Positions 43,119 to 50,449 of a stretch of 64,000 bases of DNA are shown here, piece by piece. The translations under genes were made by a program, and so were the position numbers. Position 1 is the stretch's first letter, and every line of letters begins with the position of its first letter. The stretch comes from Sabulicella rubraurantiaca (lineage in GTDB: Bacteria > Pseudomonadota > Alphaproteobacteria > Acetobacterales > Acetobacteraceae), in assembly GCF_017355885.1 (NCBI RefSeq), contig NZ_JAFEUU010000002.1, positions 186,001 to 250,000 of the forward strand. Reading direction: 5' to 3'. The notes below the pieces were generated by a model. The model searched no databases. It had not been told where the DNA came from and worked only from the letters and a program-made list of their open reading frames with translations.

Positions 43119-43616
43119 TCAGGCTCCGAGATCCAGCACCGCCACCTCGTGCCCCAGCCCCCGCAGGAATCGCAGCAGCGCCTCGGGGGCAAGGCCGGTG
43201 GAGGCGGTGTTCACGAGCGGGTGGAACCAGGCCAGCGCGGAGGCTTTCGCCAGCGCCGCGTCCAGCGCGACGCGGATCGTGCCCGGCGCGGCGTTCACCA
43301 ACCCGAACGGCGTGACGCTGCCCGGCTCCACCCCCAGCGTCGCGCGCAGCTCCTCCGCGCTGCCCATGGAGACGCGGCCCCATCCGGCGCGGCGCGCCAG
43401 CTCGTTCACGCTGAGCTGCCGCCCTTCCTCCAGCACGGCGAGGGCGAAACCGCCCTCCTTGCGCCGCAGGAAGAGGTTCTTGCTGTGCAGCCCCGGCAAC
43501 TCGCCGCGCAGCCCGCGCGACTCCGCCACGGTGAAGACGGCCGGGTGGCGCACGGTGCGCGCCTCGATCCCCGCCGCCTCCAGCCGCGCCAGCAGCCCTT
43601 CCGGCGTTTCGGTCAT
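43119..43616 (-). CDS. YbaK/ProX-family aminoacyl-tRNA deacylase (prolyl-tRNA editing type)
   Basis: A 165-residue trans-editing domain: AGIEARTVRHPAVFTVAESRGLRGELPG, the active-site Lys in HSKNLFLRRKEGG, GSVTPFGLVNAA and a C-terminal NTASTGLAPEALLRFL. The PrdX/ProXp-ala subgroup clears Ala-tRNA(Pro), and the HSKNLF motif is characteristic. The ATG overlaps the stop of the Bug receptor gene upstream on this strand (ATGA). Confidence 0.9.
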   Translation of the reverse strand: MTETPEGLLARLEAAGIEARTVRHPAVFTVAESRGLRGELPGLHSKNLFLRRKEGGFALAVLEEGRQLSVNELARRAGWGRVSMGSAEELRATLGVEPGSVTPFGLVNAAPGTIRVALDAALAKASALAWFHPLVNTASTGLAPEALLRFLRGLGHEVAVLDLGA

Positions 43617-44566
43617 TCCGGGCGAATGTTGTTGGCGCGCACCACGCGGCCCCAGCTTTCCGCCTCGTTCGCCAGCCACGCCTTGAAGGGCTCGGGCCCC
43701 ATGGCGCGCACATCGGCGCCAAGGTCGGCCATGCGGCGGGCGATTTCCGGCTGGGCGAGAATCTGGCGCAGCGCCCCGTCCAACCGCGCGATCACCGGCG
43801 CGGGCGTCGGCCCGGGGGCGAAGACGCCCTGCCAGGTGCCGCTTTCCGTCGCCGGCCAGCCGAGCTCCGCGAAGGTCGGCACGTCGAGCCCTTCCAGCCG
43901 CTTCGGACCGGAGACGGCGATGGCGCGCAGCCGCCCGTCGCGGGTGAAGGGCGCGGTGGCGGTGGCGCCGTTGATGATGATCTGCGCCTCGCCCGCCGCC
44001 ACGGCGGTCAGCGCCGCCGCGCCGCCGCGATAGGGCACCTGCGTCAGGTTCGCGCCCCAATGCTGCGCCAGCAGCACGGCGGTCAGGTGGTTGGCAGCGC
44101 CGACGCCGGAATTGGCGACGTTCAGCGTGTTCGGCGCGCGCTTCGCCAGCTCCGCCAGCTCCTGCGCGTTGCGCGCCTGGACCGAGGGATGCACGGCGAG
44201 GATGTAGGGCGCGTAGATCAGGAGGTTCACGGGCGCGAGGTCGCGCAGCACGTCAAAGGACAGGCGCGGGAACAGCGCGGGGGCGGTGGCGAGCGCGCCC
44301 GCATCGGTGATCAGCAGCGCACTGCCATCCGGCGCGGCGCGCGACACGAGTTCGGCGCCCAGATTGCCGTTGGCGCCGGAGCGATTCTCCACCACCACGT
44401 TCTGCCCGAGGATCCGCGACATCTCCGGCGCCAGGATGCGGGCGAGGATGTCGCTGGTGCCGCCCGGCGCGAAGGGGACCACGAGGCGCAGCGGGCTCCC
44501 CTGCGCGAAGGCCGGGGCGGCGAGCGGCGCAACGAGGGCGGAGGCGAGCAGGGCGCGGCGGTGCAT
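43613..44566 (-). CDS. Bug/TctC-type solute receptor (3)
   Basis: A 317-residue receptor: signal peptide MHRRALLASALVAPLAAPAFAQ, then LRLVVPFAPGGTSDILAR, NVVVENRSGANGNLGAE, NVANSGVGAANHLTA and VPYRGGAAALTAVAAGEAQI. Start at ATG 44566 from signal peptide placement. Co-transcribed with the downstream YbaK-type gene. No permease is adjacent. Confidence 0.92.
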   Translation of the reverse strand: MHRRALLASALVAPLAAPAFAQGSPLRLVVPFAPGGTSDILARILAPEMSRILGQNVVVENRSGANGNLGAELVSRAAPDGSALLITDAGALATAPALFPRLSFDVLRDLAPVNLLIYAPYILAVHPSVQARNAQELAELAKRAPNTLNVANSGVGAANHLTAVLLAQHWGANLTQVPYRGGAAALTAVAAGEAQIIINGATATAPFTRDGRLRAIAVSGPKRLEGLDVPTFAELGWPATESGTWQGVFAPGPTPAPVIARLDGALRQILAQPEIARRMADLGADVRAMGPEPFKAWLANEAESWGRVVRANNIRPE

Positions 44567-44633
44567 GGCGGTTTCCTCGGTTCGGATTTCCGCTATGGCA
44601 CCCGCATCGCGCCCCCGTGGCAAGGGGGAAAGG

Positions 44634-45623: not shown

Positions 45624-45740
45624 CGCGTTCTCCTCCTCGCGCCCTGATGCGGGCGCATGGGAAAGCCTAGACCCCTCCCGGCCCTGGAATCCACGGGGCT
45701 GCGCTTGCGCCCCGCCCGCCAATGCGCCATTTCCCGAAGC

Positions 45741-45840
45741 GACACATGGGGGTGCGCCCGGTTCGCGGCGCTGAGAGGCCGGGGACAGCCCCGCGACCCC
45801 GGAACCTGATCCGGTTCGCACCGGCGGAGGGAAGGGTGTC
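45741..45840 (+). promoter_or_regulatory. TPP (thiamine pyrophosphate) riboswitch (THI element)
   Basis: The conserved THI-box landmarks are present in order: GGGGTGC (45748-45754), CTGAGA (45771-45776), ACCTGATCCGG (45804-45814) and GGAGGGAAG-like 3' core (45826-45834). The P1 helix GACAC (45741-45745) pairs with GTGTC (45836-45840). It sits 55 nt before the start of a family-5 receptor gene. A TTCCTC (45860-45865)/GAGGAA (45880-45885) pairing would mask part of the AGGAGG ribosome-binding site, suggesting translational control: TPP bound means gene off. Confidence 0.93.
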
Positions 45841-45859
45841 GGGCGCGATCGCGTGCCCC

Positions 45860-45885
45860 TTCCTCTCCGGCATCGCGAGGAGGAA
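45860..45885 (+). promoter_or_regulatory. Putative Shine-Dalgarno sequestering hairpin of the TPP riboswitch
   Basis: TTCCTC (45860-45865) is complementary to GAGGAA (45880-45885), which overlaps the AGGAGG (45878-45883) serving the ATG at 45895. Expected expression platform; pairing is short, so confidence is moderate. Confidence 0.5.
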
Positions 45886-45894
45886 AGCGACCCG

Positions 45895-47472
45895 ATGATC
45901 CAACGCCGCGCCATCCTGGCCGCCGGGGCCGCTGCCCTCGCCTCACCCGTCGCGGCGCAGAACGCTCGGGCGCGGACGCTGCGCTTCATGCCGCAGGCGG
46001 CGCTGGCGGTGCTGGATCCGGTCTTCAACCCCTCCACCATCATCACCACCCATGGCTACTGCGTGTGGGACACGCTCTACGGCGCCGACCGCGCCATGCG
46101 CCCGCGCCCGCAGATGGCTTCGGGGCACGAGGCCTCGGCGGACGGGCTGGAATGGCGCATCGCCTTGCGCGACGGGCTGCGCTTCCATGATGGCGAGCCA
46201 GTGCGCGGGCAGGACTGCGTCGCCTCCATCCGGCGCTGGGCGGCGCGGGACAATTTCGGCCTCGCCCTGATGCGCGCCGTGGCGGAACTGGACGCGCCGG
46301 AGGACCGGGTGATCCGCTTCCGCCTCCATCGCCCCTTCCCTGCCCTGCTCGACGCGCTGGCCAAGCCGGGCAGCAGCCCCTGCTTCATGATGCCCGAGCG
46401 CTTCGCCGCGACGCCGGCCGACCGGGCGCTGGGACCTGATGCGATGATTGGCTCCGGCCCCTGGCGCTTCCAGCCGGGCGAGTATCTGCAGGGCTCGCGC
46501 TCCGTCTATCTCCGCAACGAGGCCTATGTACCGCGCGACGAACCGGCCGAGGCAGCGACGGGCGGCAAGCGCGTGCATTTCGACCGGCTGGAATTCGTAT
46601 GGCTGCCCGATGGCGGCACGGCGGCGGCGGCGCTGCGCACCGGCGAGGTGGATTGGGTGGAATACCCGCTGCCCGACCTCGTGCCGCTGCTCCAGCGTGA
46701 CCGCAACATTCGCACCCAGATCTACGACCCGAACGGCTTCCTGGGCTTCCTGCGCTTCAACCACCTGCACCCGCCCTTCAGCGACGTGCGCGTGCGCCGC
46801 GCGATCCGCGACGTGCTGGTGCAGCCGGATTTCATGCAGGCCGTGGCGCTGCCGGGGGACTGGCAGGAATGTCATTCGCTGTTCCCCTGCGGCTTGCCTG
46901 GCGCGTTGGAATTCCCGCCCGCGCCGCGCGGCCCGCAGGCGATGGACCGCGCCCGCGCCGCGCTGCGCGAGGCCGGCTACAACGGCGAACCCATCGTGCA
47001 TATCAATCCGACCGATTTCCCGGCGGTGACGCAGCAGGGCCGCGTGACGGTGGAGGTGATGCGCGCGCTGGGTCTGAATATGCAGCCAGTGGAAAGCGAC
47101 TGGGCGTCCATCCTGGCGCGGCGCGCGAACCGCAACCCGCCTTCGCAAGGGGGCTGGCACCTGCACAACACCAACGCCCCGGCAGCGACGATCGCCAACC
47201 CGGCCGTGTCCTTCGTCATCCGCATGAACGGCGCCCAGGCTTGGCCCGGCTGGCCGGAGGACGCGGCGGTAGAGGAGCAGGTCGCGGCCTGGCTTTCCGC
47301 CGCCGATGCCGGCGCTCAGAAGGTGGCGATGCGCCGCTTGCAGGAACTGGCCTGGGAGAGCGTGCCGATCGCGCCGACCGGCCTCTTCCGCCTCCGCACC
47401 GCCTTCCGCGCCGATCTCTCCGGCGTGTTACAGGGGCCGAACCCGTTCCTATGGAACCTCCGTCGCGGCTGA
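45895..47472 (+). CDS. Family-5 ABC solute-binding protein under TPP riboswitch control
   Basis: A 525-residue periplasmic receptor: signal peptide with twin Arg (MIQRRAILAAGAAALASPVAA), the SBP_bac_5 signature WRIALRDGLRFHDGEPVRGQDCVASIRRW, GSGPWRFQPGEY, FSDVRVRRAIRDVLVQPDF. It is a single gene with no permease or ATPase. Because a TPP riboswitch leads it, the ligand is probably thiamine, a precursor, a degradation product or a thiamine phosphate rather than a peptide (inference). ATG at 45895 with AGGAGG at 11 nt. Confidence 0.92.
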   Translation: MIQRRAILAAGAAALASPVAAQNARARTLRFMPQAALAVLDPVFNPSTIITTHGYCVWDTLYGADRAMRPRPQMASGHEASADGLEWRIALRDGLRFHDGEPVRGQDCVASIRRWAARDNFGLALMRAVAELDAPEDRVIRFRLHRPFPALLDALAKPGSSPCFMMPERFAATPADRALGPDAMIGSGPWRFQPGEYLQGSRSVYLRNEAYVPRDEPAEAATGGKRVHFDRLEFVWLPDGGTAAAALRTGEVDWVEYPLPDLVPLLQRDRNIRTQIYDPNGFLGFLRFNHLHPPFSDVRVRRAIRDVLVQPDFMQAVALPGDWQECHSLFPCGLPGALEFPPAPRGPQAMDRARAALREAGYNGEPIVHINPTDFPAVTQQGRVTVEVMRALGLNMQPVESDWASILARRANRNPPSQGGWHLHNTNAPAATIANPAVSFVIRMNGAQAWPGWPEDAAVEEQVAAWLSAADAGAQKVAMRRLQELAWESVPIAPTGLFRLRTAFRADLSGVLQGPNPFLWNLRRG

Positions 47473-48429: not shown

Positions 48430-49404
48430 TCACTCGCTGGTGATGCGTGCCGCCTCGATGACCCGGCGCCAGCGATCGAGGTCGCCTTCCAGGAAGGTCG
48501 CGAACTCCTCTGGCGTTGAGGGAGCGACGATGGCCCCCAGGCCTGCGAGGCGCTGCGCCGTCTCGGGCTTCTCCAGGCTGGCGCGGATGGCGCGGTTCAG
48601 CGTCTCCACCACAGGCGCCGGCGTGCGCGCCGGGGCCAGGATGCCGAGGCCCTGCGTGTATTCCTCGAAGCCCGGGAAGCCTGCCTGCGCCGTGGTGGGC
48701 ACGCCGGGATAATCGGGGTGCGGCTCGGTGGTCGAGACAGCCAGGGCTCGCAACTGCCCGCGCCCGATCATGTCGGAGATGCCGATCATCGGGTAGAACA
48801 TGAAGGAGACGCGGCCTGCCATCACCTCCTGCAGCGCGGGCGCATTGCCGCGGAACGGCACATGCGTCATGCGCGTCTCGGACAGCGTCGCCAGCAACGC
48901 GGCGGCGAGATGCGCCGAGCCGCCATTCCCGGCCGAGCCGTAGGAGATCTCGCCCGGCCGGGCGCGCGCCGCCTCCACCACGTCCTGCAGGGAGCGGAAC
49001 GGCGTCGAGGCGCCGGTGACCGCGACCAGCGGCAGACGCGCCACCAGTGAGACGGGCGCAAAATCCTGCAGGGGACGGTAGCGCGCATTGGGCAGCAGGA
49101 TGGCGTTCACGCTGTGCGACAGCGTGCTCATCAGGAGGGTGTGGCCATCCGGCGCCTCGCGCGCCACGCCCTCCGTCGCGACCAGCGCGTTGGCGCCGGT
49201 GCGGTTCTCCACCACGACGGGTTGGCCAAGGGAGTTCGTGAGATCCTGCGCCAGGACGCGCGCGATCACGTCGGTCGGCCCGCCGGCAGCGAATCCCACC
49301 ACGATGCGGACCGGTCGCGTCGGCCAGGCGGCACCTTGCGCGAAAGCCGGAAGCGGCGCGACGGCGGCAAGGAGCGCGGCGAGGCCGCGGCGGTGGAGCA
49401 TCAT
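48430..49404 (-). CDS. Bug/TctC-type solute receptor (4) in a catabolic cluster
   Basis: A 324-residue receptor with signal peptide (MMLHRRGLAALLAAVAPLPAFAQ) and Bug loops VRIVVGFAAGGPTDVIAR, VVVENRTGANALVA, SYGSAGNGGSAHLAA and MTHVPFRGNAPALQEVMAG. ATG at 49404 overlaps the stop of the small ORF upstream (ATGA). It belongs to the FAH-TauD gene row, so its ligand may be the substrate of that pathway. Confidence 0.92.
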   Translation of the reverse strand: MMLHRRGLAALLAAVAPLPAFAQGAAWPTRPVRIVVGFAAGGPTDVIARVLAQDLTNSLGQPVVVENRTGANALVATEGVAREAPDGHTLLMSTLSHSVNAILLPNARYRPLQDFAPVSLVARLPLVAVTGASTPFRSLQDVVEAARARPGEISYGSAGNGGSAHLAAALLATLSETRMTHVPFRGNAPALQEVMAGRVSFMFYPMIGISDMIGRGQLRALAVSTTEPHPDYPGVPTTAQAGFPGFEEYTQGLGILAPARTPAPVVETLNRAIRASLEKPETAQRLAGLGAIVAPSTPEEFATFLEGDLDRWRRVIEAARITSE

Positions 49405-49556
49405 GACGTTTCCCTGGGTTCTTGTTGCGTATTGGGCCGCCCGATCTCGAACGGATCGGTGGAGCGCGAATACCGGCCGTCCGGGCGTGGCGTGAGCGTG
49501 GCACGCAGCAGCCTGCCCTGGCCCACTGCCGGCAGCGACGCGAAGCCGGACAGCAT
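49401..49556 (-). CDS. 51-aa ORF translationally coupled between FAH-family and Bug genes
   Basis: ATG at 49556-49554 overlaps the FAH-family stop by one base (TGATG) and its own TGA (49403-49401) overlaps the Bug start (ATGA). The frame starts MLSGFASLPAVGQGRLLRAT and is polar and basic after a short hydrophobic start, with no recognised domain. It fills the gap between the two genes exactly. The precise fit at both ends favours a real gene, but the sequence itself gives no family match, and it could be a remnant. Confidence 0.5.
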   Translation of the reverse strand: MLSGFASLPAVGQGRLLRATLTPRPDGRYSRSTDPFEIGRPNTQQEPRETS

Positions 49557-50449
49557 CAGGCGATGCCGTGCTCGAGCACGCCGATGCGCGGGCACTCGAT
49601 CCGCAGCCGGTCACCGGATTTGAGCCAACGCGGCGGATCGCGGAAGGCGCCGGAGCCGGCGGGGGCTCCGGTGGCGATCACGTCGCCCGGCTCCAGCGTC
49701 ATGTAGCGGGACAAATGCGCGATCAGCGTGGTGACGGGGAAGATGAGGTCGTGCGTGTTCCCCTCCTGCACCAGCTCGCCATTCAGCCAGCAGCGGATCT
49801 GGAGGTTCCAGGGCTCGCCCGCCTCGTCCGGCGTCACGATACAGGGGCCCATCGGACAAAATCCATCCATGCCCTTGGCGAAGGAGGTCTGCGGCGGCTG
49901 CACGTCGAACTGGAATTCACGCGCCGAGACATCGTCCAGCAGCGTGTAGCCGGCGACGTGGCGCAGCGCATCGGCCTCGCGCACCTCGCGCGCGGTGCGG
50001 CCGATGACCACGCCGATCTCGGCTTCCCAGTCCGGCTTACGCACGGCGGCGGGAATACGGACCAGCGCGCCCGGCGGCGCGACGGCAGTCGCGGGCTTGG
50101 TGAAGATGCGCGGGATCTCCTGCACCGGCCCGCCCACCTCCTTCGCATGCGCGCCGTAATTGCGCCCGACGCCGAGGATCTTGCCCGGGCGCGGCACCGG
50201 GGCCAGCAGCCTCGCCTCGCCCAACGGGCGGCGCAGCGCCGCGTTCTCCGGCCGCGCGGCAAAGGCGAGGGCGCGTGCGGCCGCGACCATCGCCGCCTCG
50301 CCATGCGCGAGGAAGGCGGTCATGTCGCCGGGGATGATTGCGGCATCGCCGCCCAGCGCCGCCAGCGCGGCGGCGAGGTCCACCACCGAATCGCCAAGGG
50401 CCGCGCCCACGCGCGGCCCGGCCTCCGCCTCGAAGCTCAGCAGCCGCAT
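49556..50449 (-). CDS. Fumarylacetoacetate hydrolase (FAH) family protein
   Basis: A 297-residue enzyme of the FAH fold: GKILGVGRNYGAHAKEVG, FTKPATAV, the metal-binding WEAEIGVVIGRTAREV, YTLLDDVSAREFQFD, and PLEPGDVIATGAPAG-like C-terminal region (here LEPGDVIATGAPAGSG). Family members hydrolyse acylpyruvates, 2-hydroxy-2-ene-dioates or related intermediates of aromatic and sugar breakdown. The ATG at 50449 overlaps the TauD-family stop (TGATG). Confidence 0.9.
   Translation of the reverse strand: MRLLSFEAEAGPRVGAALGDSVVDLAAALAALGGDAAIIPGDMTAFLAHGEAAMVAAARALAFAARPENAALRRPLGEARLLAPVPRPGKILGVGRNYGAHAKEVGGPVQEIPRIFTKPATAVAPPGALVRIPAAVRKPDWEAEIGVVIGRTAREVREADALRHVAGYTLLDDVSAREFQFDVQPPQTSFAKGMDGFCPMGPCIVTPDEAGEPWNLQIRCWLNGELVQEGNTHDLIFPVTTLIAHLSRYMTLEPGDVIATGAPAGSGAFRDPPRWLKSGDRLRIECPRIGVLEHGIA

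Follow-up and report, generated by a model that had tools for sequence, protein, structure and literature searches.

A TPP riboswitch upstream of a lone family-5 ABC receptor in Acetobacteraceae suggests on-demand uptake of a thiamine precursor

In the window, the whole 64,000-nucleotide stretch of DNA that was analysed, a TPP riboswitch stands directly upstream of a gene for a family-5 ABC receptor that has no permease gene beside it. We regard the riboswitch and its link to this lone receptor as secure. Our preferred reading, to which we give a probability of roughly 55%, is that TPP represses a receptor for hydroxymethylpyrimidine (HMP), or for a compound carrying it, and that this receptor feeds an unlinked, shared DppBCDF importer (hereafter the hub). 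With ample TPP the aptamer would close, the ribosome site would be hidden within the leader and receptor synthesis would stop. At low TPP an alternative helix would expose that site, allowing exported receptor to build up in the periplasm. There it would bind HMP, the pyrimidine precursor of thiamine, or an HMP-carrying compound, and hand it to DppBCDF, which is encoded elsewhere and is itself preceded by receptors of the same subfamily. ThiE, together with ThiD, whose step we infer, would then complete TPP.

Results

A full-length TPP riboswitch in front of the receptor gene

An Rfam scan placed an RF00059 match at 45738-45850 on the forward strand, spanning model positions 1-105 of 105 at 43.5 bits. 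Its E-value is 3.3e-5 for the whole window searched against all 4227 families and 2.1e-7 when a 401-base stretch is searched. The aptamer does not reach the gathering score of the family (54.3 bits), and for this reason a default Rfam scan of the window reports no riboswitch. Its full length, conserved core, P1 helix and significant E-value are those of an RF00059 member. An 83%-identical gene (L102) has a leader that passes the cut-off with 58.5 bits. Besides the window's, 28 orthologue loci bear a riboswitch; 26 of them pass with 58.6-74.1 bits, whereas the remaining two, both from the window's genus, score 43.4 and 39.5 bits. Because these orthologous leaders score so well, the low value in the window looks like lineage drift rather than chance. 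The clear THI element that a preliminary description had placed at 45741-45895 is thus borne out by a significant match, though one under the gathering score, and by orthologous leaders that rise above it.

The columns that are invariant across the 29 aptamers include the stretches CTGAGAG and GGAACCTG, both of which are present in the window. Model R1, built from the 29 aptamers, gives the window 73.8 bits, a value that is circular for the window because its own aptamer is among the 29. RNAalifold found almost no covariation signal in the aptamers (-0.06), with double changes in 4 of 21 pairs, so the aptamer structure rests on the Rfam model and not on covariation here. The other RF00059 match of the window's own genome (65.3 bits) lies upstream of thiC. 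In a ThiC-bearing genome of the same genus, the 5' half of the aptamer at L067:9102-9198 aligns poorly (39.5 bits), and this riboswitch is perhaps decaying.

Table 1 Features of the riboswitch-receptor locus in the window
Feature	Position	Strand	Basis
TPP riboswitch aptamer (THI element)	45738..45845	+	RF00059 43.5 bits over the complete model
P1 helix, 5' strand, pairs with 45836-45841	45740..45745	+	six Watson-Crick pairs
Anti-sequester strand, pairs with 45857-45863 at low TPP (putative role)	45830..45836	+	seven Watson-Crick pairs
P1 helix, 3' strand, base 45836 common with anti-sequester strand	45836..45841	+	sequence and fold
Switching strand, 45857-45863 with anti-sequester strand, 45860-45866 with Shine-Dalgarno stretch	45857..45866	+	folds with either helix set imposed
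Shine-Dalgarno stretch, masked via 45879-45885	45877..45887	+	sequence; Shine-Dalgarno pairing probability 0.97
Lone family-5 ABC receptor gene, 525 aa, twin-arginine-like start	45895..47472	+	PF00496 183.8 bits

The leader is predicted to adopt two alternative folds

Translational TPP switches have one switching strand that is common to both alternative folds, an arrangement that the predicted folds of this leader share. With the Rfam aptamer pairs imposed, the leader of the window is predicted to form the hairpin 45860-45866/45879-45885 in the Shine-Dalgarno (SD) stretch. With the helix 45830-45836/45857-45863 imposed, positions 45877-45886 are predicted to be unpaired. The SD-masking stem 45860-45865/45880-45885 that had been proposed earlier is therefore one that the leader adopts, in the predicted fold, once the aptamer is imposed. 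Without ligand, the predicted energies favour the anti-sequester fold over the aptamer fold by 12.7 kcal/mol, a gap that would make closing hinge wholly on the ligand and on tertiary contacts outside the program's model. From these modelled folds we infer the direction of switching, in which TPP would turn the gene off.

In the local leader of the window the SD pairing probability is 0.97, a level that 15 of 100 shuffles attain, and we therefore rejected the stem as individually significant in the window. Over the 29 riboswitch leaders, SD pairing averages 0.89, compared with 0.76 in dinucleotide shuffles (Wilcoxon p 8e-5) and 0.53 in the leaders of the eight riboswitch-free orthologues (Mann-Whitney p 0.001), p values that ignore kinship among the leaders. 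The pairing falls below that of their own shuffles in L076, L078, L079 and L084; in L076, L079 and L093 the choice of start codon has probably put the SD in the wrong place. The masking letters vary across species yet complement the local SD in many leaders.

The receptor belongs to family 5 and has no importer genes of its own

The ATG of the receptor gene lies 49 bases downstream of the aptamer's end. PF00496 (SBP_bac_5) matches the receptor far above its gathering score of 32.4 bits and is the only Pfam family to match it at E <= 0.001; the NMT1 domain, which defines ThiY and NMT1/THI5 receptors, is absent. The scores for the NCBIfam DppA equivalog (32.5 bits, cut-off 1005), GsiB (74.7, cut-off 594) and NikA (61.9, cut-off 393) all fall far below the respective cut-offs. 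R4 and R5 are near-invariant when the receptor is aligned with 35 full-length orthologues. A Foldseek search with the fold model of the receptor (pLDDT 79.7) returned 8vdx as the best match, followed by AgaA, YliB, DppA, NikA and OppA. This nearest solved structure, a solute-binding protein of Bordetella bronchiseptica, is 37-38% identical and scores 481.7 bits with the lone receptor's profile. Its PDB title names no ligand, and the sole match for its code in the open-licence literature concerns another subject.

Upstream of the locus lies a divergent gene for a metallo-beta-lactamase-fold protein; downstream come a 187-residue frame without a Pfam match and then an opposite-strand TctC receptor. 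The neighbourhoods of 37 orthologue loci were compared using frames of at least 80 residues over 0.8 to ~9 kb per side, some ending at a contig edge, with E. coli DppB, C, D and F, the window's DppB and DppC, and ThiZ and ThiX of L181 as queries. No Dpp- or ThiX-type permease frame was found beside the receptor in any of the 37, and a single ATPase-like frame occurs 1.8-6.9 kb away in four (L066, L075, L085 and L091). These results lead us to reject an overlooked adjacent permease or ATPase and agree with the earlier description of an SBP_bac_5 receptor lacking both, apart from the ATPase-like frame at the four loci.

Two TctC-type receptors (PF03401), at 43616-44623 (-) and 48433-49614 (-), flank the locus with no transporter gene noticed nearby, and a further TctC-like frame is present at about 42.1-43.1 kb. 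Orphan receptors, and not of a single class, may be frequent in this region.

The riboswitch-receptor pair is conserved

A receptor search over 249 Acetobacteraceae genomes, with matches listed in order of E-value, gave among those listed 36 full-length orthologues at 61-100% identity, the own genome included, below which an identity gap leads to paralogues at no more than 54%. A 37th orthologue (G088) is a 75% match covering residues 2-347, with the remainder in another frame; this split locus (L099), a broken gene or a sequencing error, is also without a riboswitch. An RF00059 match lies directly upstream of the receptor at 29 of the 37 loci, ending 39-181 bases from the chosen start codon in the 28 other than the window's. 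The eight genomes with riboswitch-free orthologues (G209, G245, G121, G213, G024, G112, G172 and G088) all have ThiC. In a quick tree of 65 rows, all 36 orthologue rows form one clade (support 100) apart from 24 hub receptors, and the riboswitch label requires two changes between riboswitch-bearing and riboswitch-free orthologues.

In a second, named collection, comprising the best 80 of at least 570 relatives, 66 loci carry the riboswitch according to the model built from the first set, whose training overlaps these species. Of these 80 loci, 19 were submitted to Rfam, which recognises the riboswitch in 14 at its curated cut-off. The misses include L145 and L161, with fewer than 50 bases upstream, and L180, a 52% paralogue. 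By their record titles, the riboswitch-bearing loci include Roseococcus, Neoroseomonas, Rhodovarius, Siccirubricoccus, Rubritepida, Humitalea and Roseomonas.

Ten receptor genomes miss the pyrimidine step of thiamine synthesis

A Pfam search found no ThiC in 10 of the 37 receptor genomes (G044, G216, G124, G160, G237, G203, G188, G141, G120 and G202). Completeness is at least 96% for nine of these and 80% for G120; G216 consists of a single contig. ThiE was found in all 37 and a strong ThiG match in 36, the ThiC-bearing G138 giving a weak match only. The ten genomes thus keep the thiazole and coupling steps and, among the steps searched, miss only the pyrimidine step. In all ten, the receptor's riboswitch is the sole RF00059 match above the cut-off; of the extra matches below it, one in G141 scores 26.3 bits and the rest score under 19 bits.

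E. coli uses another enzyme than the thiamine pyrophosphokinase family searched here. This family was found in none of the 37 receptor genomes, and the same search also misses E. coli, so that these genomes may yet use thiamine. The window's own genome has ThiC, and HMP import is consequently not obligatory there. We rejected an enrichment of ThiC loss with the receptor, because ThiC is missing from 10 of 37 receptor holders and from 59 of the 212 other genomes of the 249. Among the 37 receptor holders, the absence of ThiC is no more than weakly associated with the presence of the riboswitch (Fisher p 0.079).

ThiC-less relatives carry other importers behind TPP riboswitches

Of the 59 genomes that lack both ThiC and the receptor, 18 supplied the 20 TPP-riboswitch loci examined here, which were chosen among the matches listed. 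By their first open frames, nine precede ATPase-permease-receptor rows of the NMT1/THI5 type, and the other 11 precede a TonB-dependent receptor (eight), a ThiO-like oxidase (two) or an unclear frame (one). Pfam confirmed eight proteins from seven loci, namely an ATPase, a permease, an oxidase, two NMT1/THI5-like receptors and three TonB receptors; the remaining frames were classed by similarity to these eight. The TonB-type loci are L188, L190-L194, L196 and L199, of which Pfam confirms L188, L191 and L199, the others being similar in sequence; in six of the eight, a THI5-like receptor match lies ~2-4 kb downstream. The survey of receptors behind TPP riboswitches suggested by the preliminary description thus recovers the pair at 29 of 37 orthologue loci, and in ThiC-less relatives it finds NMT1/THI5-type operons at 9 of 20 loci. 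This ThiZXY-type importer of the same family likewise lies behind a TPP riboswitch, but it is a whole ATPase-permease-receptor operon with a Pfam NMT1 receptor, unlike the lone SBP_bac_5 receptor of the window.

THI5-like receptors occur in 58 of the 249 genomes (E <= 1e-50) and in none of the 37 receptor genomes, where nothing reaches 1e-20. The chance of zero overlap is 2e-5 if genomes are assumed to be independent, which they are not, and the mutual exclusion is confounded by shared ancestry. Ten further genomes in this search had been chosen for a TPP-riboswitch importer and form no independent control. The 69 ThiC-less genomes (249 minus the 180 ThiC-bearing genomes listed) divide into 10 with the family-5 receptor, 32 with the THI5-like receptor and 27 with neither.

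A DppBCDF hub is the best candidate partner

The preliminary description had suggested that the receptor borrows the incomplete importer at 18.7-22.3 kb of the window. This set comprises a family-5 receptor, DppB and DppC, and no Dpp-type ATPase frame lies between 14 and 30 kb; it probably borrows ATPases, since its DppB is highly conserved, with a match of at least 78% identity (78-100%) in 30 of the 37 receptor genomes. However, this DppB is missing (best match at most 59%) from the other seven (G044, G216, G124, G005, G102, G159 and G236), three of which are ThiC-less. We therefore reject the set as an obligate partner and consider the hub a better candidate.

We inspected the Dpp loci of 5 of 10 DppB-like matches in G216 and of 4 of 11 in the window's own genome (G000), together with that of the window. 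In each genome, one DppBCDF operon is preceded by kin of the lone receptor, which score 527-565 bits with its profile, or 218 bits for one that is clipped by the end of the stretch. For seven other Dpp operons, either the receptor does not exceed 120 bits or no receptor was found; the 18.7 kb receptor scores 40. A hub DppB with at least one preceding receptor of the same subfamily (one to six frames per genome) was recovered in all 35 genomes examined (G236 and G088 lie outside the sample); it is 81-100% identical to that of the own genome, and most hub receptors score ~490-610 bits. All DppBCDF subunits were recognised in 33 of the 35, G120 and G213 being short of one or two in the stretch examined. 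In the own genome, the hub DppB lies at C64:123415, outside the window, and five same-subfamily receptor frames, one of them clipped, precede this hub (L208, C64:116000-132000). Among the importers considered, the hub is the most likely partner, on which the lone receptor would dock. Pseudomonas aeruginosa offers a precedent for several receptors feeding a single Dpp importer, since its DppBCDF works with DppA1-A5 (PMC4206461), in the same arrangement as proposed here. Those receptors bind di- and tripeptides, however, and the abstract of that paper mentions neither a riboswitch nor a vitamin precursor.

The dipeptide anchors of DppA are not kept

E. coli DppABCDF shares the receptor fold class and the kind of importer subunits considered here (PMC12136057). 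In DppA, the dipeptide is held at its carboxyl end by R383 and at its amino end by D436, and a double charge reversal abolishes binding (PMC12136057). Neither anchor is kept in the lone receptor: at the positions aligned to DppA 383 and 436, none of 36 lone receptors has Arg and none has an acid, respectively, in an alignment that is gapped in this region and differs between runs, none of which gives the window Arg or an acid. Hub receptors (n=118) also lack the Arg in every case and have D or E at the second anchor in 98. The receptors of the seven other Dpp operons have no Arg, and four have D at the second anchor, which indicates that the DppA anchors are not general in the class. At the scoop positions, hub DppB has DQ in 35 of 35 genomes, compared with ER in E. 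coli DppB. As far as aligned residues can tell, these observations argue against dipeptide binding in the manner of DppA and would fit an uncharged ligand.

Discussion

Comparison across genomes suggests that a role with a thiamine compound is likely, and HMP appears to be the most likely ligand, because the ThiC-less genomes keep ThiE and ThiG and no thiamine pyrophosphokinase was found in them, which points to HMP rather than thiamine. The earlier proposal of a thiamine-compound receptor that borrows a transporter is supported in this sharpened form, with the exception of the partner at 18.7-22.3 kb. A close parallel is SAR11, an HMP auxotroph that cannot use exogenous thiamine and has a putative HMP importer, ThiV, under a TPP riboswitch (PMC11452348). 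The combination of HMP auxotrophy and a putative importer behind a TPP riboswitch resembles the pattern of our ten ThiC-less genomes, but ThiV is a one-protein sodium symporter, whereas the window encodes an ABC receptor. Several findings count against our reading: ThiC in the window's own genome, the lack of enrichment of ThiC loss among receptor holders, the 27 ThiC-less genomes with neither type of receptor, the eight riboswitch-free orthologue loci, the higher predicted stability of the ligand-free anti-sequester fold, and the ATPase-like frame some kb away at four loci.

E. coli uses thiamine via ThiK and ThiL. With the same switch and hub, the ligand might instead be thiamine, a thiamine phosphate or a breakdown product (an aminopyrimidine such as AmMP or FAMP) that is later made into HMP, a reading that we find somewhat unlikely. 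Thiamine could be used through ThiK and ThiL as in E. coli, and TPP riboswitches control transporters of thiamine and of its precursors alike (PMC3766115). The absence of the pyrophosphokinase from all 37 genomes speaks against it, tempered by the failure of that search in E. coli, and retention of ThiE and ThiG in ThiC-less genomes fits a missing pyrimidine only. It is also unlikely, to a slightly greater degree, that the ligand is as we propose while the receptor docks on another importer, be it the 18.7-22.3 kb receptor-DppB-DppC set or another Dpp/Opp system. Such permeases are numerous, with 11 DppB-like matches in the own genome, five of them inspected, and the 18.7-22.3 kb set sits in the same window without a Dpp-type ATPase frame between 14 and 30 kb; but its DppB is lost from seven receptor genomes, and the receptors of that set and of the seven other Dpp operons score far below those of the hub with the lone receptor's profile.

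Import of a peptide or of another nutrient needed at low TPP, with no thiamine compound involved, seems quite improbable to us. Solved family-5 relatives do bind, by their PDB titles, peptides, nickel, opines, sialic acid and glutathione. The lone receptors, however, lack both DppA anchors in 36 of 36, and ten genomes have the receptor's riboswitch as their only one above the cut-off and no THI5-like importer. We give very little credence to a riboswitch that has decayed and lost TPP sensing in the window's genus. The scores of 39.5-43.5 bits in the own genome and two ThiC-bearing congeners are below the cut-off, and the aptamer of L067 is poorly aligned in its 5' half. On the other hand, the window retains the core letters, P1 and the SD-masking arrangement, and scores above the Rfam cut-off are reached by the leader of the 83%-identical relative and by those of the three ThiC-less congeners (58.6-63.1 bits).

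Taken together, a TPP-repressed receptor for HMP or an HMP-carrying compound that feeds the DppBCDF hub remains our preferred reading, and it would be a new variation on riboswitch-controlled uptake of thiamine precursors, with an unusual receptor class and an unlinked, shared importer. Among the matches listed in the open-licence literature, compared by titles and abstract openings, there was no report of a TPP-riboswitch-controlled family-5 receptor, and no open-licence paper on Roseomonas and the TPP riboswitch was found; the supplementary gene lists of PMC3766115 may contain the gene. More tentatively, and with less confidence than in the reading itself, we suggest a family-5 vitamin-precursor receptor, a member of the hub subfamily placed under a private TPP riboswitch for on-demand HMP import, which would replace ThiXYZ in this branch of the Acetobacteraceae; other lone receptors may be wired likewise.

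If this holds, a vitamin precursor is carried by a receptor class that annotations commonly label as peptide-binding. Since the receptor gene is not linked to its importer, such systems would escape any annotation that relies on adjacent permease genes. Roseococcus suduntuyensis and R. thiosulfatophilus, tentatively the ThiC-less genomes G124 and G044, in which the receptor's riboswitch is the only TPP riboswitch above the cut-off, would then be predicted HMP auxotrophs.
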